The notes under the pieces: model-generated
What the model was told of the DNA's origin: nothing
Database searches by the model: none
The model's input: only the letters and a program-made list of their open reading frames with translations
Shown: positions 4,580-45,472 of the stretch, piece after piece
How the letters are laid out: each line of letters starts with the position of its first letter
How positions within the stretch are numbered: position 1 is the first letter of the stretch
IMG/VR virus record: IMGVR_UViG_3300005466_000039
Span: 1-46,310 of that record
Strand: one strand, 5' to 3'
DNA length: 46,310 nucleotides
Origin: a virus
Position numbers and translations under genes: made by a program

Positions 4580-5234
4580 GGGCAATCTCCACGGCTTCCC
4601 GACTCATAGCGCTCCGAGGGTTTGCACAACCCGCAGAGGGGGGCCGCTCCACAGGGCACTCACAGGTTTCGCGGGCGTCGAACTTTCCCGCCTCATTGCC
4701 CCACGACTCCCACCCCCGCCTGGTCTCGCGGCTGAAAATGTCGGCCCGGCGCAATGCCTTAGGCGCAAGACGTTCCGCGGCCTCGTAAGCCTGATCGGGC
4801 TTGCGCGAATGCTCCCTGCGGGGGCCCTCGACGACGGTACGCACATTCTTGGCAAAGGTCGGCTCGCCGATTTTGGCGATGAGGAACGGCTCGGAAGCGC
4901 AGCGGAGCGCGTAACCGGTCCCGAAGGCCAGCTTTCCCGACGCGCCCCGCTTCGCCCACACTCCGGACGTCACGAACGTGAACCGCCATGCGTCCAGAAC
5001 TTCGAAGGCCTGACGCAGCATCGGGTGCGTGGCCCACAGCCACAGGATGCAGCTGGGTGCCGCCAGCTGCTGCACTGGCAGCGCCTTGATGTCGTCGAGG
5101 CTCATGCACTGGTAGTGCGCGACCGGATTCTTGATCTCGCCCTTTACGGAGCGGTTGAAGAACCGCCAGCCCGGGTCGATCATGATCAGGTCAAAGGCGA
5201 GCGGCTGCAGAGGCGCAAAGCTGGTGATGGTCAT
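4572..5234 (-). CDS. MT-A70 family DNA adenine N6-methyltransferase
   Basis: 220 residues, ATG 5234 in ATGA overlap with the previous stop. Residues 10-25 (PLAFDLIMIDPGWRF) carry the catalytic motif IV of MT-A70 enzymes, here DPGW instead of the usual DPPW. ALPVQQLAAPSCILWLWATHPML and FTFVTSGVWAKRGASGKLAFGTGYALRCASEPFLIAKIG are further family signatures. RRADIFSRETRRGWESWGNE is the usual end of the domain. The last 35 residues are extra. It probably methylates phage DNA, for example against host restriction or to adjust replication or expression. Target sequence unknown. Confidence 0.88.
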   Translation of the reverse strand: MTITSFAPLQPLAFDLIMIDPGWRFFNRSVKGEIKNPVAHYQCMSLDDIKALPVQQLAAPSCILWLWATHPMLRQAFEVLDAWRFTFVTSGVWAKRGASGKLAFGTGYALRCASEPFLIAKIGEPTFAKNVRTVVEGPRREHSRKPDQAYEAAERLAPKALRRADIFSRETRRGWESWGNEAGKFDARETCECPVERPPSAGCANPRSAMSREAVEIAHG

Positions 5235-7955: not shown

Positions 7956-8234
7956 TCAGGCCCTTGCGGGCTGTGTTTCGGAGGAAGCGGCGGCCCTCTT
8001 TGCGGCCAACCAGTCGCCATAGAGGTCCTCAGCCTTGATGCCGGTGGCCTCTTCGATCCGCTCGAAAGTGTCCTTCCCGACCTCGGGATCCCCGGCGAGG
8101 ACGCGGTAGATCAGCGACCTGGCGCAGGCACAGTCCTTGGCGAAGGCGGTGATGGAATATCGTGGGTCATCGACCCGGCGGGCGGCAATGAAGCGGCGGA
8201 TATGGCTGTCAGGGTGTTCGGCGGTGGCTTCCAT
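7956..8234 (-). CDS. Cro-like helix-turn-helix regulator
   Basis: 92 residues, ATG 8234. Residues about 25-75 (RYSITAFAKDCACARSLIYRVLAGDPEVGKDTFERIEEATG) form an XRE-like helix-turn-helix with the recognition helix around SLIYRVL. It is the first gene of the leftward operon and is divergent from the repressor at 8333, the usual position of a Cro or early regulator. The start codon lies 8 bases after the -10 of its promoter and has no ribosome site, pointing to a leaderless message. The operator TGTCCC-N6-GGGAC sits inside that promoter. Confidence 0.75.
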   Translation of the reverse strand: MEATAEHPDSHIRRFIAARRVDDPRYSITAFAKDCACARSLIYRVLAGDPEVGKDTFERIEEATGIKAEDLYGDWLAAKRAAASSETQPARA

Positions 8235-8242
8235 GCGCTGGT

Positions 8243-8271
8243 TTATGTCCCATTAATCGGGACGGCGTCAA
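8243..8271 (-). promoter_or_regulatory. Early leftward promoter PL
   Basis: Minus strand: -35 TTGACG (8271-8266), 17-bp spacer, -10 ACATAA (8248-8243). The spacer is occupied by an operator, so a bound repressor would block polymerase. Its design is nearly the same as that of PR at 9091. Transcription should start within a base or two of the ATG at 8234. Confidence 0.7.
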
Positions 8272-8323
8272 CAGTGCAGAAACCCGATTAGCGGTACATG
8301 GAAAGTGTCCCGGATACCGTATC
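8246..8323. promoter_or_regulatory. Left operator cluster (O1, O2 and weak O3)
   Basis: O1 is TGTCCCATTAATCGGGAC at 8246-8263, inside PL. O2, read on the minus strand, is TGTACCGCTAATCGGGTT at 8298-8281. A third site, TGTCCCGGATACCGTATC at 8306-8323, keeps only the first half. The repressor gene starts 10 bases later, so O2/O3 may also control its own promoter. A possible -10 (TATCAC, 8320-8325) lies 7 bases before the repressor ATG. Confidence 0.65.
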
Positions 8324-8332
8324 ACTTCCGGC

Positions 8333-8680
8333 ATGCCAAAGAAGCGTAAGCGTATGCACTTTTTGAAGGAGTGGATGGAGTTCCGGGGAAACATCTCCAT
8401 CCGGAAACTTCACCTCAGAATCGAGCACGAGCCTGGCGAGGCCCTCATCTCGACGTCCGCCCTTGGCCGCATCGTCAGCGGCGAGAACCAGTCAATGGAT
8501 CCGGAGGTGCTGTTTGCCCTGGCAGAGGCGCTCGACTGCGGGCCTGAGGACATCCTCACGGTGAACCCGCTGAAGGAGCCCGAGGTCGTGGATCTGATGG
8601 CGGCCATCCGCAAGATCCGCGAGATGAACGACCCAGCCATAATCAAGCAGGCCACAAGGAACGTTTTGGCTGTGGCCTAG
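8333..8680 (+). CDS. XRE-family lysogeny repressor (short CI-like)
   Basis: 115 residues, ATG 8333, with no ribosome site upstream. Residues about 20-80 (ISIRKLHLRIEHEPGEALISTSALGRIVSGENQSMDPEVLFALAEALDCGPEDIL) are a Cro/C1-type helix-turn-helix. The last 30 residues could mediate dimer formation. No LexA-like protease domain is present, so induction by self-cleavage is not expected; a separate antirepressor or another signal would be needed. The gene is divergent from the Cro-like gene and lies between two operator clusters, the position of lambda cI. Function is inferred from family and place. Confidence 0.75.
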   Translation: MPKKRKRMHFLKEWMEFRGNISIRKLHLRIEHEPGEALISTSALGRIVSGENQSMDPEVLFALAEALDCGPEDILTVNPLKEPEVVDLMAAIRKIREMNDPAIIKQATRNVLAVA

Positions 8681-8961
8681 CGCGGCATCTCGGCGGCGAC
8701 ATTGTGGAAGGTGGGCTCAGAACTGGCGCTCGAGTGCCACTGCAGATAGTTCCACCCGACGAACGCCGCTGCGCCCGACATCAAAAGAATTGCCACGCCT
8801 AATCCGCCAAGCCTGTCGGCCCTGCGCCGGCGGGCCTCGTCCTGGGCAGATGCCCAGGCGATCAGCCAGCCATACATGGCGATCAGGAACGCGATCACCG
8901 CCAGCAGAGCGATAATCACAAGCATCAGGTCAACAATCATGGGGCCCCCGCTTTTGGCCAT
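8677..8961 (-). CDS. Small membrane protein in the immunity region
   Basis: 94 residues, ATG 8961 (a second ATG seven codons on is possible; neither has a good ribosome site). Two hydrophobic segments: MIVDLMLVIIALLAVIAFLI (about 8-30) and LGGLGVAILLMSGAAAFVGW (about 52-72), separated by a basic loop (DEARRRRADRL). It converges on the repressor gene and overlaps its last four bases. Lying between the two operator clusters, it may be expressed in the lysogen and could be a superinfection-exclusion protein. That role is inference only. Confidence 0.6.
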   Translation of the reverse strand: MAKSGGPMIVDLMLVIIALLAVIAFLIAMYGWLIAWASAQDEARRRRADRLGGLGVAILLMSGAAAFVGWNYLQWHSSASSEPTFHNVAAEMPR

Positions 8962-8990
8962 TGAAGCTGGCTGGAATCGCGTTCGGGAAC

Positions 8991-9116
8991 GAACCGATTA
9001 ACGGCACAGAAACGCTCGGCCGGGGGACCGAAATGGTTCCTTCCTACCCACTTTTCCACATGCCTGTCCCGATTTTCGGTTCGCACCCCGTTGACAGTGT
9101 CCCGGTGAATGGGACA
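8991..9116. promoter_or_regulatory. Right operator cluster (three sites)
   Basis: Minus strand 9008-8991: TGTGCCGTTAATCGGTTC. Plus strand 9065-9082: TGTCCCGATTTTCGGTTC. Plus strand 9098-9116: TGTCCCGGTGAATGGGACA, a perfect TGTCCC/GGGACA palindrome inside PR. The last one read on the minus strand matches O1 at 16 of 18 bases. With the left cluster this makes five good sites and one half-site of one motif flanking the repressor. Confidence 0.65.
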
Positions 9117-9119
9117 TGT
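9091..9119 (+). promoter_or_regulatory. Early rightward promoter PR
   Basis: Consensus -35 TTGACA (9091-9096), 17-bp spacer, -10 ACATGT (9114-9119). An operator palindrome at 9098-9116 fills the spacer. The first gene starts at 9143 behind a GGAGAGGG ribosome site, giving a short normal leader of about 16 bases. It should drive the rightward operon through the integrase. Confidence 0.7.
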
Positions 9120-9142: not shown

Positions 9143-9418
9143 ATGCACGCCGAGATCATCGATTTCCGCCCCGCTGGGGCACGGACCAAGGCCACAAAAC
9201 GGGGGCTCCGGCCACGCAATGTGGTCGCCTGGACGGACCCTGAGACGGGCGCCGAGTGGTCCGACCTGGTGGTCGAGTTCGTCTACGCCCGGCTGGGCAC
9301 AGCGTTGTGCCACGGGTGCTTCGGCCGCATGGCCCGGGACGGCGGGTTCAAGATCGAGGCGCGCCCGCTGCCGATCGACCAGCTGACGATCACAGGCCAC
9401 CTGCCGGAGGCCGCGTGA
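9143..9418 (+). CDS. Hypothetical protein, first gene of the rightward operon
   Basis: 91 residues; ATG 9143 preceded by GGAGAGGG. Basic N-terminal arm (ARTKATKRGLRPRN) followed by a compact part with a single CHGC pair (LCHGCFGRMARDGGFKIEARPLPIDQLTITGHLPEAA). One CxxC is not enough for a zinc finger alone; a dimer could share metal. No family recognised. First-gene position behind PR suggests an early regulatory or takeover role, which is inference. Confidence 0.65.
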   Translation: MHAEIIDFRPAGARTKATKRGLRPRNVVAWTDPETGAEWSDLVVEFVYARLGTALCHGCFGRMARDGGFKIEARPLPIDQLTITGHLPEAA

Positions 9419-10861: not shown

Positions 10862-12079
10862 ATGGCCGCGCCACGCGCCACCACCCGACGCCGCAGGCCT
10901 GAGTCAGTCCAGGAAGCGCTGCCTTTCGTGCTGCCCGAGGGCGTGCACATCGGCCTTCCGCAGGACACATACTTCGGCAGCCGGGCCATCGGCTCCAGCG
11001 ACCTCGACACGCTGGCGACCGACGCCCACAGCTGGTGGTACGGCTCGCCATTCAACGCCGACCGCGGTGACCGCAAGAAGCGGGATGTGGCCAAGACCTT
11101 CGGCTCGGCGCTCCACGCCCTGATCCTCGAGGGCGAGGACGCGTACACCACGCGCTTCGTGGTCCAGCCCGACGAGGACAGCGCCCGCTATGCGAAGGGC
11201 ATCGACCAGGTGCGGCAGCTCCTCATCGACAAAGGCGTGCGTTTCGGTCGGGGCGACTTGTTCCACCCGCCCACGCTCGACCGCTTGGTGCGCGGCGCCG
11301 GCCTGCAGAACCGCGTCTGGGAGATCCGCAACGCCGACTATCTGGCCGCCCGGAAGAAGGGCCTCGACGTCATCACGGAGGACGAGGACCGGCGCCTGCG
11401 CCACATGTCCTACCTCGTTTCCTCGCACGACGACCTCCGCGTGCTCAAAGGCGGCATGGCCGAGGTCAGCGTCCTGTGGCGGGATCCGCGCCGGCCGGGC
11501 GTGCTGAAGCGGGCGCGCTTCGACAAGCTTCTCCCGCCCGTATCTCGGACCGCCCTGGCGCACGCCATCGACCTGAAGTCCTTCGGCAACGTCCGCGACA
11601 AGTCCGTGGACGAGGCGACCTTCGACGCGATCGCTGACTACAGTTACGACCTGCAGGCCGAACACTACCGCGAGGCATTCGAGGCCGCGCGTGAGTTCGT
11701 CGGGGACGGCGCCATCCACGGCTGGAGCCAGCGGCCGGGCGCGCCGTTCCCGGAATCCGTCGAGGTCCTGCGCGCCGAACGCGAGATGCTCAAGGCGATC
11801 TTCGGGGCCGAGCAGTGGCTGTGGGTGTGGATCTTCTACCAGGTCCGCAACGATGCGCCCGGCCAGGAGAAGGCGCCGATCATTCGCCCCTGGTACACGC
11901 GCCCACAGGGCCGGATGTTCAACGACGCCCGCCGGGTCATCGAGAAGGCGCTCGACAACTACGAGCGCCTGGTCGGCGAGTTCTCCCTCGGCCGCCCGTG
12001 GTCCGAGATCCTCCCCATCGAAGAACTTCCCTTGGAGCGCCTCAAGCGCCTGTCTATCAAAAGGAGCCTGCAGCTATGA
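10862..12079 (+). CDS. RecE/YqaJ-like PD-(D/E)XK exonuclease
   Basis: 405 residues, ATG 10862 directly after the previous stop, with GGAGG about 10 bases upstream. Residues about 40-85 (AIGSSDLDTLATDAHSWWYGSP, then KTFGSALHALILEGEDAYTTRFVV) are the typical start of exodeoxyribonuclease VIII-type nucleases (S-x-L followed by G-x-A-x-H). The active-site part is RARFDKLLPPV, then AHAIDLKSFGN (acid, then D-x-K), and a conserved QAEHYREAFE follows. It would resect double-strand ends to give 3' tails for the next gene product. Part of a phage recombination operon. Confidence 0.8.
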   Translation: MAAPRATTRRRRPESVQEALPFVLPEGVHIGLPQDTYFGSRAIGSSDLDTLATDAHSWWYGSPFNADRGDRKKRDVAKTFGSALHALILEGEDAYTTRFVVQPDEDSARYAKGIDQVRQLLIDKGVRFGRGDLFHPPTLDRLVRGAGLQNRVWEIRNADYLAARKKGLDVITEDEDRRLRHMSYLVSSHDDLRVLKGGMAEVSVLWRDPRRPGVLKRARFDKLLPPVSRTALAHAIDLKSFGNVRDKSVDEATFDAIADYSYDLQAEHYREAFEAAREFVGDGAIHGWSQRPGAPFPESVEVLRAEREMLKAIFGAEQWLWVWIFYQVRNDAPGQEKAPIIRPWYTRPQGRMFNDARRVIEKALDNYERLVGEFSLGRPWSEILPIEELPLERLKRLSIKRSLQL

Positions 12080-13326
12080 GCACCGCCGTGAAGGTCATGG
12101 AGCGCCCGGCCGCCGGCGTCGTCCAGGAGATCACCGCCGCCGAAATCGATCGGCAGATCGAGACCGCCAAGCGATACCCGCGCGTGCTGGAAGCATCGCG
12201 GGGCGAGCTCCTCGAGATCTGCACCATGTCCGAGGACGTCGCCACCGACTGCATGTACGCGCTGCCCCGGAAGGAGAAGGGCAAGACCAAGATGATCGAA
12301 GGGCCGTCGGTGCGGTTCGCCGAAAACCTCGTCTACTGCTGGGGCAACATCCGCGCCGGCGCACGCATCGTCGATGAAGGTCAGGAATTCATTACCGCCC
12401 AAGGCTGGTGCGCCGACCTGCAGAAGAACACCGGCCTCTCGGTTGAGGTGAAGCGAAAGATCACTGGTCAGTACGGCAGGTTTTCCGCAGACATGGTCGC
12501 GATGACGGCGAACGCCGCGTGCTCCATTGCCCTGCGGAACTCCATCTTCGACTGCATCCCCAAGGCGCTCTGGTGGGACGTCTACCTCAAGACACGGCAG
12601 CGCGCCGTAGGCGACGAGGCCACGCTTCAGATGCGCCGCGATCGCGCGATCGGCTATTTCGTAAAGGCGGGCGCCGAAGAGGCCAAGATCTACACGGCGC
12701 TGGGCATCGAGGATAAATCGCAAATCACGCTCGACATCCTCGCCATCCTCAAAGGCCTGGCACAGGCGGTGAAGGACGGCGAGATCCCGATCGACCGCGT
12801 GTTCGAGCCCGATGCAGCGGAGGAGCGCGCGCGCATCACGCTCGGCGGCGAGGATCAGTTCAACGGCATCGACAAGCAGCTGCAGGGCAAGGGCGCCCAG
12901 CCCAAGGAAAAGGGCGGCGACAAATCAGACGCCGCCCCTGAGAAGTCGAAGGGTGATGGGTCGTCGACCAAGGGACCGGCCGACAAGGACAAACCTAAGA
13001 CCGCCAAGGGCAAGGCCGGTTCAGCCGCCGCCCCCAAGCCCGAAGAGGGCGGCGGCCAGCCACCGGAGAGCGTGGCGTCGACAGCCGAAGCGACCGGCGA
13101 CAAAGCCAAGGCTGCCACGGCGCCTGGTCCCGTGGACTATGCTGGCCTGGACGACATTCTCGCGCGCGTTGAGGACCTGACAGCCAATGGCTCCAAGCTG
13201 TCGGCGCGAAAGTATGTCGACACCAACCGCGAGGAGTTGCAGGCCGCCGTTGATCGCGGGCCGAAGAAGCTGGCCGAACGCGCGAAGAAGGCTCTCGACG
13301 ATTACCCTCCGCAGGCGGCTAAATGA
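12076..13326 (+). CDS. Probable single-strand annealing / RecT-like recombination protein
   Basis: 416 residues from ATG 12076 (ATGA overlap; AAGGAG 9 bases upstream). Residues 1-235 are folded: MIEGPSVRFAENLVYCWGN, IVDEGQEFITAQGWCADLQ, then MTANAACSIALRNSIFDCIPKALW and a basic helix. This pattern is common in phage proteins encoded next to RecE-type nucleases. Residues about 255-355 are a Lys/Pro/Ala-rich linker. The last 55 residues form a helical domain (DYAGLDDILARVEDLTANGSKLSARKYVD). Annealing function is inferred mainly from the exonuclease partner; the family was not checked. Confidence 0.6.
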   Translation: MSTAVKVMERPAAGVVQEITAAEIDRQIETAKRYPRVLEASRGELLEICTMSEDVATDCMYALPRKEKGKTKMIEGPSVRFAENLVYCWGNIRAGARIVDEGQEFITAQGWCADLQKNTGLSVEVKRKITGQYGRFSADMVAMTANAACSIALRNSIFDCIPKALWWDVYLKTRQRAVGDEATLQMRRDRAIGYFVKAGAEEAKIYTALGIEDKSQITLDILAILKGLAQAVKDGEIPIDRVFEPDAAEERARITLGGEDQFNGIDKQLQGKGAQPKEKGGDKSDAAPEKSKGDGSSTKGPADKDKPKTAKGKAGSAAAPKPEEGGGQPPESVASTAEATGDKAKAATAPGPVDYAGLDDILARVEDLTANGSKLSARKYVDTNREELQAAVDRGPKKLAERAKKALDDYPPQAAK

Positions 13327-15029
13327 CGAAGCACCCGATCCCCGAGGCTGCCCTCGATGATCGCCTAGCGTTCGTCGGCACTAGCGGCAGCGGCAAGACC
13401 TACAACGCCGGCACGGCGGTGGAGCGTCTGCTGCATGCTGGCGCCCGCGTCGGGATCATCGATCCGCTGGGCGTGTGGTGGGGACTTCGCCTCAACGCCG
13501 ACGGCAAGGCGTCCGGATTCAGCATCGTAATCTTCGGCGGCCCGCACGGCGACCTGCCGCTTACGGAGAACGCCGGTGCGCTCATCGGTGAGACGTGCGC
13601 CACGATGTCGGAGAGTTTCATCATCGACCTGAGCCAGCTCGGCACAAAGGCGGCCGAGCGGCGCTTCACCCTGGACTTCCTCACGTCCCTTCACCGCAAG
13701 ACTGGGGGCGAGCCGCTCAACCTGGTCGTCGATGAGGCCGATATGTTCGCGCCGCAGTTCGTCTCGGACAAGGACGGCGGCGCCGTGAAGCTGCTGGGCA
13801 TGATGGAGACCATCGTCCGGCGCGGTCGGGTCAAGGGTTTCATCCCCTGGCTGATCACACAGCGGCCGGCAGTGCTGAACAAGAACGTGCTGAGCCAGGC
13901 GGACGGCCTCATCGCCATGAAGCTCACGTCCAGCCAGGACCGCGCCGCCCTGGGCGAGTGGATCGAGGGCCAAGCCGATCGGGCAGAGGGCAAGCGCATC
14001 CTTGGCGAGATGCCCGCCCTGCAGCTGGGCCAGGGCGTGGTCTGGATCCCCGGCCGCGGCATCCTCACCACCGCGAACTTCCCCCGCAAGGCGACGTTTG
14101 ATTCCTCGCGCACGCCCAAGCGCGGCGAGAAGCAAAGGACCCACACGCTTAAGCCGCTGGACGTCGGCAAGCTGCAGGAGCGGCTGTCGAAGGTGGAGGC
14201 CGAGACCGCCGCCAACGATCCGAAGAAGCTGAAGGCGCGGATCGCCGAGTTGGAGAAGACCGCGGGCAAGACGCCCGCCCAAGGGGTCGACCAGGTCGCC
14301 CTCGATGCGTCCTACAATCGCGGCCACAAGGACGGTTACAACGAGGGCAAGGTAGTCGGGCGCGAGGACGCCCTTAAAGAGCTGGTTCCCACCGTCGAGC
14401 AACTCCGCAGGATGGCTGACACCGTCGAAGGCCTCGCCATGCGCGCCGAGGTTGCGCGCTCCACGTATAAGGCCGCGTCGGCTGCACCGATCCCCTCTGT
14501 CCGTCCTGCGACCAAGCCAGTGGCCACCGCTGCGCCGCCCAAGTTGAACGGTTCAGGCGCCGGCCTGGGCAAGCCCGAGATGAAGATCCTCGAGGGACTC
14601 GCTGCCTGCCACGCCATGGGCTTTGCCCAGCCGACGCGCGAGCAGGTCGCCGCCTTCGCCGGCTACAGCTCCAATGGCGGCCGTTACGCGAACCTGCTGG
14701 GCGGCCTGCGCACCGCCGGTTACCTCGACTATCCATCACAGGGAACGCTCGCCCTGACCGACGCTGGCCACGCCGCGGCGCCCGCGCCTGACCGCTCGCT
14801 GTCCGTCCGCGATCGCCTGGCGCCGGTGCTCGACAATCCCCAAGCCAAGATCCTCGACGCTCTGCCGAAGGATGGCAGCCCCGTCACGCGCGACGAGCTG
14901 GCCCAGCGGAGCGGCTATGAGGCCGGCGGTGGGCGCTTCGCCAACCTTGTGGGATCGCTGCGGACGCTCGGCGTCGTGACATATCCCTCGCAGGGCCATG
15001 TGGCGGCAGAGCCGTGGGTGTGGTCATGA
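13323..15029 (+). CDS. HerA-like ATPase with duplicated C-terminal winged-helix domains
   Basis: 568 residues, ATG 13323 (ATGA). The N-terminus holds Walker A GTSGSGKT (about 18-25) and Walker B LNLVVDEADMF (about 135-145), followed by VRRGRVKGFIPWLITQRPAVLNKNVLSQ, the sensor region of HerA/FtsK-type hexameric ATPases. A coiled coil follows (about 270-360). Two copies of a small domain end the protein, with shared motifs GGRYANLLGGLRTAGYLDYPSQG and GGRFANLVGSLRTLGVVTYPSQG, probably winged helices. HerA proteins move DNA and usually pair with a nuclease; here the partner may be the RecE-like enzyme. Confidence 0.8.
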   Translation: MTKHPIPEAALDDRLAFVGTSGSGKTYNAGTAVERLLHAGARVGIIDPLGVWWGLRLNADGKASGFSIVIFGGPHGDLPLTENAGALIGETCATMSESFIIDLSQLGTKAAERRFTLDFLTSLHRKTGGEPLNLVVDEADMFAPQFVSDKDGGAVKLLGMMETIVRRGRVKGFIPWLITQRPAVLNKNVLSQADGLIAMKLTSSQDRAALGEWIEGQADRAEGKRILGEMPALQLGQGVVWIPGRGILTTANFPRKATFDSSRTPKRGEKQRTHTLKPLDVGKLQERLSKVEAETAANDPKKLKARIAELEKTAGKTPAQGVDQVALDASYNRGHKDGYNEGKVVGREDALKELVPTVEQLRRMADTVEGLAMRAEVARSTYKAASAAPIPSVRPATKPVATAAPPKLNGSGAGLGKPEMKILEGLAACHAMGFAQPTREQVAAFAGYSSNGGRYANLLGGLRTAGYLDYPSQGTLALTDAGHAAAPAPDRSLSVRDRLAPVLDNPQAKILDALPKDGSPVTRDELAQRSGYEAGGGRFANLVGSLRTLGVVTYPSQGHVAAEPWVWS

Positions 15030-18407: not shown

Positions 18408-18574
18408 CGCAGCCCAGCCCCGAAGAACGGTTCGTGCGATGGCTTCTTGAATGTGCGCGACAGTGCCGGATTGACACGCAGTGGGATCCCGCTGCCCGTC
18501 GCGCGGCGTTTACTGCGGTCGACATCGAGATCACTCGGGCACTGCTCCGCCTAGATAGGGGCAAGGACCGGTGA
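18404..18574 (+). CDS. Hypothetical protein (56 aa)
   Basis: ATG 18404 (ATGA). MTQPSPEERFVRWLLECARQ, then a helix with TAVDIEITRALLRLDRGKDR. Two predicted helices, no motif. Overlaps on both sides support that it is translated. Function unknown. Confidence 0.5.
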   Translation: MTQPSPEERFVRWLLECARQCRIDTQWDPAARRAAFTAVDIEITRALLRLDRGKDR

Positions 18575-19074
18575 GTCGTATTGAGCCTCTCTACGCCTCA
18601 GAGGGCCTCTCCCGCGTGGAGGCCGCCCGCTATGTCGGCGTCGGCGCCACAACCTTCGACGCTCTTGTGGATAAGGGCGAGATGCCCCCCGCGCGCTGGG
18701 GCCTTCACTGGTCGAGGGCCACGCTCGACGCGTGGCTAAAGCAACTACCGCTTGATCCCCCCGGCCCGTGGCCCGTCGAGCCCTGCGTTTACTTCCTCTG
18801 CATGGAAAGAGCGCCTTACGTTAAAGTCGGACACGCCACGCGGATCGCCACCCGCCGCTTGGATCTGCAGGTCGGAAACCCGGAGCGGTTGTTGTTGCTA
18901 GCGACGCTCCCTGGCTCCTTGCAAGACGAGAGCAGTTTCCATCGCGCGCTGGGCCCCTTCCGTTCGGTGGGAGAATGGTTCCACAGCGGCATATGGGTCG
19001 ACGAGGTCCTGATCGGGGTCGGCCGGCGCGAGGGTACAGAGGCAATCCTCAACCGGATAAGGGCTACCCGATGA
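18571..19074 (+). CDS. AlpA/excisionase-type helix-turn-helix fused to a GIY-YIG (T5orf172-like) nuclease domain
   Basis: 167 residues from GTG 18571 (GTGA). Residues 8-55 (ASEGLSRVEAARYVGVGATT, then FDALVDKGEMPPARWGLHWSRATLDAWL) are a MerR/AlpA-type winged helix. Residues about 73-150 (CVYFLCMERAPYVKVGHATR, LDLQVGNPERLLLLATLPG, ESSFHRALGPFRSVGEWFH) match the T5orf172/MUG113 branch of GIY-YIG nucleases. The fusion suggests a nuclease guided by a sequence-specific head. It sits directly upstream of the probable excisionase and integrase, so a site-specific recombination or immunity role is possible. Confidence 0.7.
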   Translation: MSRIEPLYASEGLSRVEAARYVGVGATTFDALVDKGEMPPARWGLHWSRATLDAWLKQLPLDPPGPWPVEPCVYFLCMERAPYVKVGHATRIATRRLDLQVGNPERLLLLATLPGSLQDESSFHRALGPFRSVGEWFHSGIWVDEVLIGVGRREGTEAILNRIRATR

Positions 19075-19490: not shown

Positions 19491-20332
19491 TCAACGCCTA
19501 CCTAGATGCGGGCAAGTCCGACCGCTACCTCCTGCCGATCCTGCGCGCGCTCGGGGACCTCGAAGTGCCGGCGCTGACCCAGGCGAAGATCGACGAGACC
19601 GGGCGCAAGGCGTACCCGAGCGTCAAGCCGCCCACCCTGCGCCGCCAGTGGCATGGCCGCATCCAGGCGGTCCTGCACCACTCGAAGATCCGCCTCGACC
19701 TCACCCTCCCTGCTGCATCCACAGCGACGACACGTTGGTGCACGCCCGCCCAGGCGGAGCAGATCGTCCGACAGTGCGCCGCTGGGCGCCGCCGGGACCC
19801 CTGGGCGCCGGCGATGGCCGAGTTCCTCTTCGGGACCGGCTGCCGCACCAGCGAGGCCCTGGGGCTCAAGACGGAAGATGTCAGCCTCGAATACGGCACC
19901 GTCACCCTGCGCAATACCAAGAACGGCCACGAGCGCACCGTCGCCCTGCAGCCGCGGACGATCGCCGCGCTGGCTCGCCTGCCGAACCTCGACAAGCCCG
20001 GCCGCGTGTTCAAGAAGGCCGGCGGCGGCGACTATGTGGAGCGCGCGGATCCTGCCGGTGCCAAGCTTCACTTCCTCCGGGCAGCCGCCACACGCGCGGG
20101 GCTCGCCGTGTTTAACCCGCACATGACCCGCCACACCTTCGCGACCTGGTTCTACTGCCAGACGAAGGATGCGCTCCGTCTCAAGGACCAGGGCGGCTGG
20201 CGCACGGACGTGGCCATGCAGCGCTACACGCATCTGGTCCCGGCAAAGGTCGGCCTCGACGCAATCGCGCTGGGCTGGGACTTCCGCGAGCGCGCGATCG
20301 AGACACCGGCTGAGGAGAAGCGGCATGCGTGA
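19262..20332 (+). CDS. int: Tyrosine site-specific integrase
   Basis: 356 residues, ATG 19262. Arm-binding N-terminus (MSLRLWRRRDGRSGNWYVIG), core-binding domain about 85-160, catalytic domain from about 175. Catalytic residues: Arg in GTGCRTSEALGL, Lys in RNTKNGHERTVAL, H-x-x-R in PHMTRHTFATWF, Trp in DQGGWRTD, and the nucleophile Tyr in MQRYTHL. It would recombine attP, 150 bp downstream, with the host tRNA-Ser gene. It is the last gene of the recombination operon from PR and may overlap its excisionase. Confidence 0.93.
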   Translation: MSLRLWRRRDGRSGNWYVIGSVPVWRDGRVRQVRLKQTSTRTTDKVEAEAVLLQIAQRYQRGNIENRDAPPTVGDLINAYLDAGKSDRYLLPILRALGDLEVPALTQAKIDETGRKAYPSVKPPTLRRQWHGRIQAVLHHSKIRLDLTLPAASTATTRWCTPAQAEQIVRQCAAGRRRDPWAPAMAEFLFGTGCRTSEALGLKTEDVSLEYGTVTLRNTKNGHERTVALQPRTIAALARLPNLDKPGRVFKKAGGGDYVERADPAGAKLHFLRAAATRAGLAVFNPHMTRHTFATWFYCQTKDALRLKDQGGWRTDVAMQRYTHLVPAKVGLDAIALGWDFRERAIETPAEEKRHA

Positions 20333-43900: not shown

Positions 43901-45472
43901 CTACAGCACCAGCGCGCCACGTTTTTCGTAAATGCTGGGCCCGGCTCCGCGCTCGATCATCTGGGCCCTCTTTCCCGCCGCCATCGCCAGCGTTTGGGCG
44001 CCGTCGATACGCATCCGTGATTTTTCCTTGTCGAACTTACGGTTGCCCGCCGGGTCGGTGGATACAGCAGCGTTGGCGATGTGGTTCGTGAGGAGGATGT
44101 GGGCCTGGTGCTCCAGCTCCTCCTCCATGATCAGGAGCTCAAGAGCGTCGAGCGCGGGCGCCATCGACCCATAGCCCTGCCCCCACGGGTAAAGCGGGAT
44201 GCCGGAGCCGTCCGGGCCTTCCTGGAACGAAATGTCGGCGCGGTCGAGCTCGCGCTTAAGGCTTTCGATGCGCCACCGGTCATAGACGAAGGCTACGATG
44301 CGATAGTGCAGCCGCAGCCAGCCGACTTTCATGGCGATGGTGAGCGGATCGATCGACTTGCCCGGCGAGGTCTCGAGAAGTCCCTGCTTTGCGAGCAGCG
44401 TGTAGTCGATCCGGTCGCGCTTCCCGTGCTCTTCGAGGAAATCCTCCGGCTTCCAGAACCACGTGAGGTAGCGCGCACCCTTTACCGACATGGCGCCGAG
44501 ACATGCGAGGTCGGTGGTGCCGGCGAGGTCGAGCGAGACGACAATTTCCTCGCCAGGCACCAGTTTGACGTCCGGATTCGCGCACGCCTTCCACAAATTC
44601 TTCGGCGCCAGCACCGAATGCCGGCTCACGCGCTGATTCAGATAGAGGTTGCGGTAGGTGTTCTCGAAGCCCGGCATGCGGCTGGCCTTATCGGCTAGCG
44701 CCTTGAGATCCGTTTCAGACCGGAAAGTCCCGAGCGCCGGGTTGGCCAGCTTCGCGGTTTTGAGGCTGAAAATGTCCTCCGCGTCGTCCGGCACGGCGTA
44801 GAGGTGGCAGACGATGGTCTTGTCCTGGCCGGAGAGACCGTCGTCGATGAGCTGGGACAGGATGTGCTGCGGATCGTTCGACTGCGTCGAGATGATCACG
44901 CCGAGCGGCTCGGAGCGGGCGCCTTGGGAAGTGTCGAGCACGTCGTAAAGGTCGCGGTTCTTCGACTGGGCCAGCTCGTCGTAGATCCAGACGGACGGAT
45001 TCAGACCGTGCTTCGTGCCAGCCTCGGCCGAGATGGCCTTGTAGAACGATCCGTTGGCGTAGCAGACCATCGACTTGGTACTGTCGATGATGTTGACGAT
45101 CGACAGCAGCTCCGGATCTGCCCGGACCATCTGCGCCGCCACCTTGAACACCTGGGCGGCCTGTTCCCGATCGTTGGCGGCCGAGTAGATCTCGCCGTTG
45201 GCGATGGCTTCGGGCCCGACCAGGTGGACAAGCACGATGGCCGCCATCAGTGCGGTCTTCCCGTTCTTCCTGGCGATGGAGAGGATGGCGCGCCGGCAGG
45301 TGCGGCGGCCCTTGTGCTCGCGGTAGACGTCCCGGATCCAGTCCTTCTGGAAATTGTCCAGGTCGAAGGGCGCGCCCTGCCCCTCGCCGGAAGGCACAAC
45401 CAGCAATTCGATGAAGGAAATGACCCGATCCGCGCGCGTCGGCGCCGCCGATCTAGGCGCGGACTTTGCCAC
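43901..45472 (-). CDS. terL: Terminase large subunit
   Basis: 523 residues from GTG 45472, 20 bases inside the small subunit gene. ATPase: RAILSIARKNGKTALMAAIV (Walker A ARKNGKT, about 65-72), LNPSVWIYDELAQSKNRDLY (Walker B, about 160). Nuclease: EEIVVSLDLAGTTDLACLGA (first Asp, near 315), later YDRWRIESLKRELDRA and a last acidic cluster in the C-terminal 100 residues. HK97-type Terminase_1, usually cos cutting with single-stranded ends. It packages DNA with the small subunit and HNH. Confidence 0.94.
   Translation of the reverse strand: MAKSAPRSAAPTRADRVISFIELLVVPSGEGQGAPFDLDNFQKDWIRDVYREHKGRRTCRRAILSIARKNGKTALMAAIVLVHLVGPEAIANGEIYSAANDREQAAQVFKVAAQMVRADPELLSIVNIIDSTKSMVCYANGSFYKAISAEAGTKHGLNPSVWIYDELAQSKNRDLYDVLDTSQGARSEPLGVIISTQSNDPQHILSQLIDDGLSGQDKTIVCHLYAVPDDAEDIFSLKTAKLANPALGTFRSETDLKALADKASRMPGFENTYRNLYLNQRVSRHSVLAPKNLWKACANPDVKLVPGEEIVVSLDLAGTTDLACLGAMSVKGARYLTWFWKPEDFLEEHGKRDRIDYTLLAKQGLLETSPGKSIDPLTIAMKVGWLRLHYRIVAFVYDRWRIESLKRELDRADISFQEGPDGSGIPLYPWGQGYGSMAPALDALELLIMEEELEHQAHILLTNHIANAAVSTDPAGNRKFDKEKSRMRIDGAQTLAMAAGKRAQMIERGAGPSIYEKRGALVL

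Follow-up and report, generated by a model that had tools for sequence, protein, structure and literature searches.

Which DNA elements control transcription around the small repressor gene of this virus, and which proteins are likely to read them? The DNA analysed, referred to here as the window, is a complete virus record from IMG/VR, 46,310 bases long. A preliminary description had reported two groups of one motif flanking the repressor gene, in an arrangement like that of phage lambda. The analysis of the sequence indicates, with considerable confidence, that the virus is a temperate siphovirus and that its immunity region holds a lambda-type switch with two repressors acting on six putative 19-bp operators. 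The features of the region are listed in Table 1.

Table 1. Coordinates of the genes, putative operators and predicted promoter elements of the immunity region (window numbering; operator sequences are given for the + strand).
Feature	Coordinates	Strand	Remarks
Cro-like HTH protein, 92 aa	7956-8234	-	divergent from repressor; first gene of left operon
Outward promoter, PR-equivalent	8243-8271	-	TTGACG 8271-8266, 17 bp, ACATAA 8248-8243; operator in spacer
Operator O1	8246-8264	+	centre -78 from repressor ATG; best motif match; TGTCCCATTAATCGGGACG
Operator O2	8280-8298	-	centre -44 from repressor ATG; AAACCCGATTAGCGGTACA
Operator O3, imperfect	8306-8324	+	over repressor promoter -10; TGTCCCGGATACCGTATCA
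Repressor promoter (PRM-equivalent), -10 region	8320-8326	+	-13 to -7 of ATG
Repressor, 115 aa	8333-8680	+	Pfam HTH_26, E 1.8e-6; PHROG repressors
Small membrane protein	8677-8940	-	two hydrophobic stretches by eye; converges on repressor, 4-nt overlap
Third right-hand operator	8990-9008	-	about 59 bp upstream of membrane-gene ATG; CGAACCGATTAACGGCACA
Right-hand pair, inner operator	9065-9083	+	TGTCCCGATTTTCGGTTCG
Outward promoter, PL-equivalent	9091-9119	+	TTGACA 9091-9096, 17 bp, ACATGT 9114-9119; operator in spacer
Right-hand pair, outer operator	9098-9116	+	in rightward promoter spacer; 33 bp from inner; TGTCCCGGTGAATGGGACA
Right operon, first gene	9143-9418	+	

Both motif groups were recovered around the repressor gene. 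The window contains six 19-bp sites of the TGTCCC-N7-GGGACA type, three at 8246-8324 and three at 8990-9116, and nothing comparable elsewhere in its 46.3 kb. Scored over the whole window with a symmetric 19-bp matrix, the six sites reached 17.5-23.5 and the next best position 11.0, and many equal matches elsewhere were not seen. Random controls (20 Markov-1 sequences of the same length) gave a median best score of 11.8 and a maximum of 17.2. A pattern search of the whole window allowing up to three mismatches found no matches beyond the two clusters. When each site was left out of the matrix in turn, 5 of the 6 had no better-scoring place outside the clusters, and the site at 8306 was outscored once, at 18416. 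The latter is a weak seventh motif match (score 11.0) at chance level; a predicted HTH_17 gene (18571-19074) lies about 150 bp downstream of it. The preliminary description had counted five copies and one half-site; the repeats are real, but the supposed half-site at 8306 is a full-length imperfect site, with all of its 19 bp identical in the nearest relative, locus L007, and each cluster holds three sites.

The repressor of L007 is 82% identical to that of the window, and all six operator sites recur there. Its left cluster hardly differs from that of the window. On the right, the half-sites are kept and changes have occurred in the centres of the sites and in the intervening DNA, and this retention of half-sites amid diverged DNA is the pattern of bound sites' evolution. 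The exact 18-mer of the site at 8246 was found on the L007 contig only, in a set of viral contigs that may leave out near records of the window, and the exact operator and promoter patterns likewise matched that contig alone. The DNA of the region gave no match to cultured phages, and the Cro-like protein none to the viral contigs and phages; the search of a bacterial genome collection returned one weak match, which is probably irrelevant.

The preliminary description had placed one operator of each group in the 17-bp spacer of an outward promoter. That geometry was found as claimed on both sides, where the operators overlap predicted outward early promoters of the two flanking operons. The rightward -10, ACATGT, is a poor one and reads ACATAT in L007, in which the leftward promoter elements of the window are also present. 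Only 8 nt separate the leftward -10 from the ATG of the Cro-like gene at 8234, which makes a leaderless transcript probable. The repressor start lacks a Shine-Dalgarno sequence and its promoter lacks a good -35; the position of its -10 and the missing Shine-Dalgarno sequence suggest that the repressor transcript is probably leaderless as well. Across a family of 42 related loci, described below, the repressor starts share A at -11, A at -9 (35/42) and T at -7, and a Shine-Dalgarno-like motif precedes the repressor at 3 of the 42. With the -10 placed as if transcription starts at the ATG and Shine-Dalgarno sequences rare, we infer leaderless repressor transcripts for the family. Of 33 right clusters, 21 have an outward TTGAC just beyond the outer site, as do 14 of 30 left clusters, against a background of about 1.4% per equal window; none of these 33 right and 30 left clusters has a TTGAC on the inward strand beside the outer site.

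The genes on the two sides identify the clusters. The Cro-like protein gave weak HTH_31 and PHROG repressor matches, and most relatives carry HTH-like sequence in the divergent ORF at the matching position. Beyond it, the left operon encodes a replication O-like protein, a DnaB helicase, a methyltransferase and a Holliday junction resolvase. The left cluster is thus the analogue of lambda OR, since it lies between the repressor gene and the divergent Cro-like gene that heads the replication operon, and the right cluster is the analogue of OL, since it drives the recombination and integrase operon. The labels PL and PR in the preliminary description are valid as directions only; its lambda-like arrangement was borne out, although the divergent Cro-like gene had gone unmentioned. 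Further on, the right operon contains an exonuclease VIII-like gene (10862-12079) and a tyrosine integrase domain (19736-20236, + strand; PF00589, E 2.5e-23) in an open frame of 423 aa. The late genes encode head, portal, terminase and tape-measure/tail proteins, as in a long-tailed phage. Together, the integrase in the right operon and these late genes indicate that the phage is probably temperate. A 568-aa protein encoded at 13323-15029 (+ strand) gave weak matches of two kinds, terminase large subunit-like and HerA/DUF87-like, and a separate terminase large subunit lies at 43901-45472.

As modelled by AlphaFold2 (mean pLDDT 82), the repressor consists of a five-helix HTH domain, in which helix 41-49 is the one positioned for recognition, followed by two helices at the C-terminus. 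Fold matches of the model were weak (none with E <= 0.001) and were to HTH regulators including ClgR, EspR, SinR and the N-terminal domain of P22 c2; a sequence search against solved structures returned spurious armadillo-type matches only. The domain search of the 115-aa protein gave HTH matches only and no match to an S24 peptidase/oligomerisation domain, so lambda-style self-cleavage is not expected. Membership in the lambda CI protein family, in which the HTH is joined to a RecA-cleavable S24 domain, was rejected for the repressor, as that C-terminal domain is absent and two helices take its place. A LexA-like box, GTTC-N7-GTTC, sought as an explanation of SOS induction, matched once, which is the chance number.

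The repressor and the membrane gene do lie between the clusters, as first described, but the membrane gene is encoded on the other strand, convergent and outside the repressor operon. Its start at 8940 was preferred over one at 8961. In the window and in L007 (operator at 4722-4740), the start of the membrane gene lies 57-59 bp downstream of the third right-hand operator, so the repressor may control this gene; a clear promoter was not found there. Small convergent genes occupy the membrane-gene position in L008-L010. The gene converging on the repressor varies among relatives, like a cargo slot (8677-8940 in the window, about 4354-4674 in L007 and 4333-4542 in L008).

An alignment of four repressors led to 50 viral loci whose repressors, of about 100-133 aa, are related, and the removal of near-duplicates left the 42 loci, among them the window and the named phage types. 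For each repressor, 150 bp of upstream sequence were compared with 1.2 kb of downstream sequence, at the same locus and across loci. Own pairs shared motifs far more than cross-locus pairs (Mann-Whitney p 1e-17, 42 loci), and 24 of the 42 loci were individually significant (rank p <= 0.05). Shared-word comparison missed weakly similar pairs, for example in L007, and a symmetric matrix search was therefore used. The motifs themselves differ between groups. The motif TGTCCC-N7-GGGACA is common to the window and L007 only; the TGTAACACCGGGTGTTACA type is found in L008, L015, L020 and L026, the TTTCAGTCAAAACGAAATT type in L010, L011, L022, L039 and L058, ATGCATGNCATGCAT in L021, L025 and L030, the GTGTATCNGATACAC type in L023 and L031 and the TGTTAGTGGTGCTATCA type in L041 and L051.

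A palindromic motif finder was run locus by locus on the 42 loci. Upstream site centres fell near -78 (about -77.5) in 27/42, near -43 in 24/42 and at -17 in 8/42, and a pair of downstream sites spaced 32-36 bp (mostly 33, 34 or 35) was present at 33/42 own loci and missing from about a fifth, in position and spacing windows that were set after inspecting the data and are supported by three elements outside the derivation set. Such a pair appeared in 0/84 shuffled controls and in 18/84 cross-locus controls, the latter because the borrowed downstream regions contain real pairs. These results bear on the reading of the repeats as replication iterons or a chance cluster instead of operators. Repeats that cluster beside replication genes on one side would suit it, but they are split over two places, their outer sites sit within promoter spacers, their geometry is fixed across many phages with different sequences and their scores are far above random; we regard it as extremely improbable.

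Motif similarity between loci followed similarity of the repressor recognition helix with the rest of the protein controlled (partial r 0.38, p 0.0005), and the association persisted with Cro similarity also controlled (r 0.29, p 0.0005), in permutation tests that leave some shared ancestry among loci. At the level of the family, this supports the assignment of the 8333 protein as binder in the preliminary description. For the window the assignment rests on the family, because its motif is common to L007 only and the match between its own Cro and repressor helices is only moderate (rank 12/41). Alternatively, the Cro-like 8234 protein alone, or a host factor, might bind the operators and the 8333 protein have another target. 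Both products are small HTH proteins, and Cro similarity has its own association with the motif when the repressor is controlled (p 0.001), the divergent Cro ORFs having been chosen by a simple rule that probably took a few in the wrong frame (e.g. L030 and L047). Against this stand the association that the repressor helix keeps after control for Cro and the fixed positions of the operators from the repressor start. Repressor and Cro helices also match better within a locus than in permuted pairs (p 1e-4), as expected when both read one operator. Binding by the Cro-like protein or a host factor alone is, in our judgement, decidedly unlikely.

In the two-repressor switch that we prefer, the 115-aa repressor and the opposing Cro-like protein would both bind the one 19-bp palindrome at the six sites. 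Repressor at the outer site of each cluster would block the outward early promoter that holds this site in its spacer, namely those of the leftward Cro/replication operon and of the rightward recombination/integrase operon, and with both blocked, lysogeny would be kept and immunity given. O2, at about -44 from the predicted leaderless start, sits where a class II activator of PRM would bind, and its family equivalent is conserved near -43. It is placed where bound repressor could activate the repressor promoter, like lambda CI at PRM, and the weak O3 over the repressor -10 is placed to shut that promoter off at high repressor. Activation at O2 and autorepression at O3 are thus proposed from position.

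A simpler reading would have two independent autoregulated promoter regions and plain repression of the early operons, with no bistable switch. Mutual repression is unproven by sequence; nevertheless, the phage carries an integrase, a divergent HTH gene whose helix matches that of the repressor across the family, and an ordered set of three sites between these divergent starts, together what a cI/cro switch needs, and we consider this simpler scheme unlikely. The two-repressor switch might in addition involve a DNA loop joining both clusters through repressor oligomers, as between lambda OL and OR. The same sites stand in two clusters around the repressor gene and are kept so in most relatives. 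However, the distance between clusters ranges from 460 to 1551 bp across the family, and the 27 loci examined for helical phasing showed none (best Rayleigh p 0.12), although long loops need not be phased, and the repressor ends in two short helices without the lambda CI oligomerisation domain. A loop is therefore possible but rather doubtful.

The three elements outside the derivation set fitted the rule, with motif-finder scores about double those of their shuffles. Sinorhizobium phage phiLM21 has sites at -76 and -43 and a downstream pair 35 bp apart, with a motif near TGTAGCGATTATCGCTACA; Paracoccus phage Pthi1 has sites at -76 and -43 and a 34-bp pair; and a possible Devosia plasmid-prophage has sites at -76 and -17 and a 34-bp pair. 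An immunity region of this kind, L067 (NZ_CP063402.1, 34125-40379), is carried by a 44.6-kb Devosia plasmid that may be a plasmid-prophage. The repressor of phiLM21, with 227 aa, is of another and longer type than that of the window, yet the operator geometry is common to both. In phiLM21-like prophages, a search for operators with exactly the lambda or 16-3 sequences had found none; whether their operators differ or have changed was left open, and loss of regulation was inferred in some (2025, PMC12429752). The predicted sites support the view that phiLM21 operators differ from those of lambda and 16-3.

Taken together, it seems fairly probable that a single operator geometry is common to many alphaproteobacterial temperate phages, whether their repressors are short or long. 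It would consist of sites near -77 and -43 before a leaderless repressor gene, a downstream pair 33-35 bp apart and an outer site within each outward promoter. Operator, repressor helix and Cro helix would change together, and operators and immunity groups could be read from sequence. The switch principle is ordinary, of the lambda type; the operator sequence, the spacing and the repressor type appear to be new, though an earlier description may exist, as the literature was covered in part. Little is known of operators in the temperate phages of alphaproteobacteria, and phage 16-3 is the worked rhizobial example in the literature examined. The layout locates candidate operators across dozens of phages, phiLM21 included, and predictions of homo- and heteroimmunity become testable. 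Matched triples of repressor, Cro and operator offer a natural set for the evolution of DNA specificity, and, as the repressor has no self-cleavage domain, the question arises how these prophages are induced.

Among rhizobial phages, RHph_Y1_10, RHph_N2, RHph_I1_23 and Sinorhizobium phage PBC5 encode a homologous short repressor with 35-39% identity to that of the window and have operators at matching places with other sequences (TGTAACACCGGGTGTTACA type; TTTCAGTCAAAACGAAATT type). The three Rhizobium phages among them also share the divergent HTH gene, the small convergent gene and the gap before the rightward operon. Phage 16-3 is likewise an alphaproteobacterial temperate phage with annotated operators flanking the repressor gene (OL1/OL2 and OR1/OR2), but its C repressor has 263 aa and its annotated operator centres are 17 bp (OL) and 26 bp (OR) apart. 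The 33-34 bp spacing of the right-hand pair and of O1-O2 rules out the 16-3 C/OL/OR system for the window; phage 16-3 was not among the tblastn matches of the window repressor and, as expected, the motif finder failed to recover the 34-bp layout in it.

In lambda, the repressor gene lies between OL and OR, and three operators separate the divergent cI and cro genes. The outer operator covers the early promoter, one site stands near -42 of PRM and a weaker one over its -10, and the repressor mRNA is leaderless. The window differs in the spacing of its operators, whose centres are 33-34 bp apart in the right-hand pair and in O1-O2 and about 23-24 bp apart in lambda, in its unrelated operator sequence and in its 115-aa repressor without an S24/oligomerisation domain. 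Lambda rex is co-transcribed with the repressor, whereas the membrane gene of the window is convergent. What the two have in common is the plan: a repressor gene between two clusters of one motif, three operators between the repressor and the Cro-like gene, an outer operator on the early promoter, O2 at the equivalent of -42, O3 over the -10 and a repressor mRNA predicted to be leaderless.
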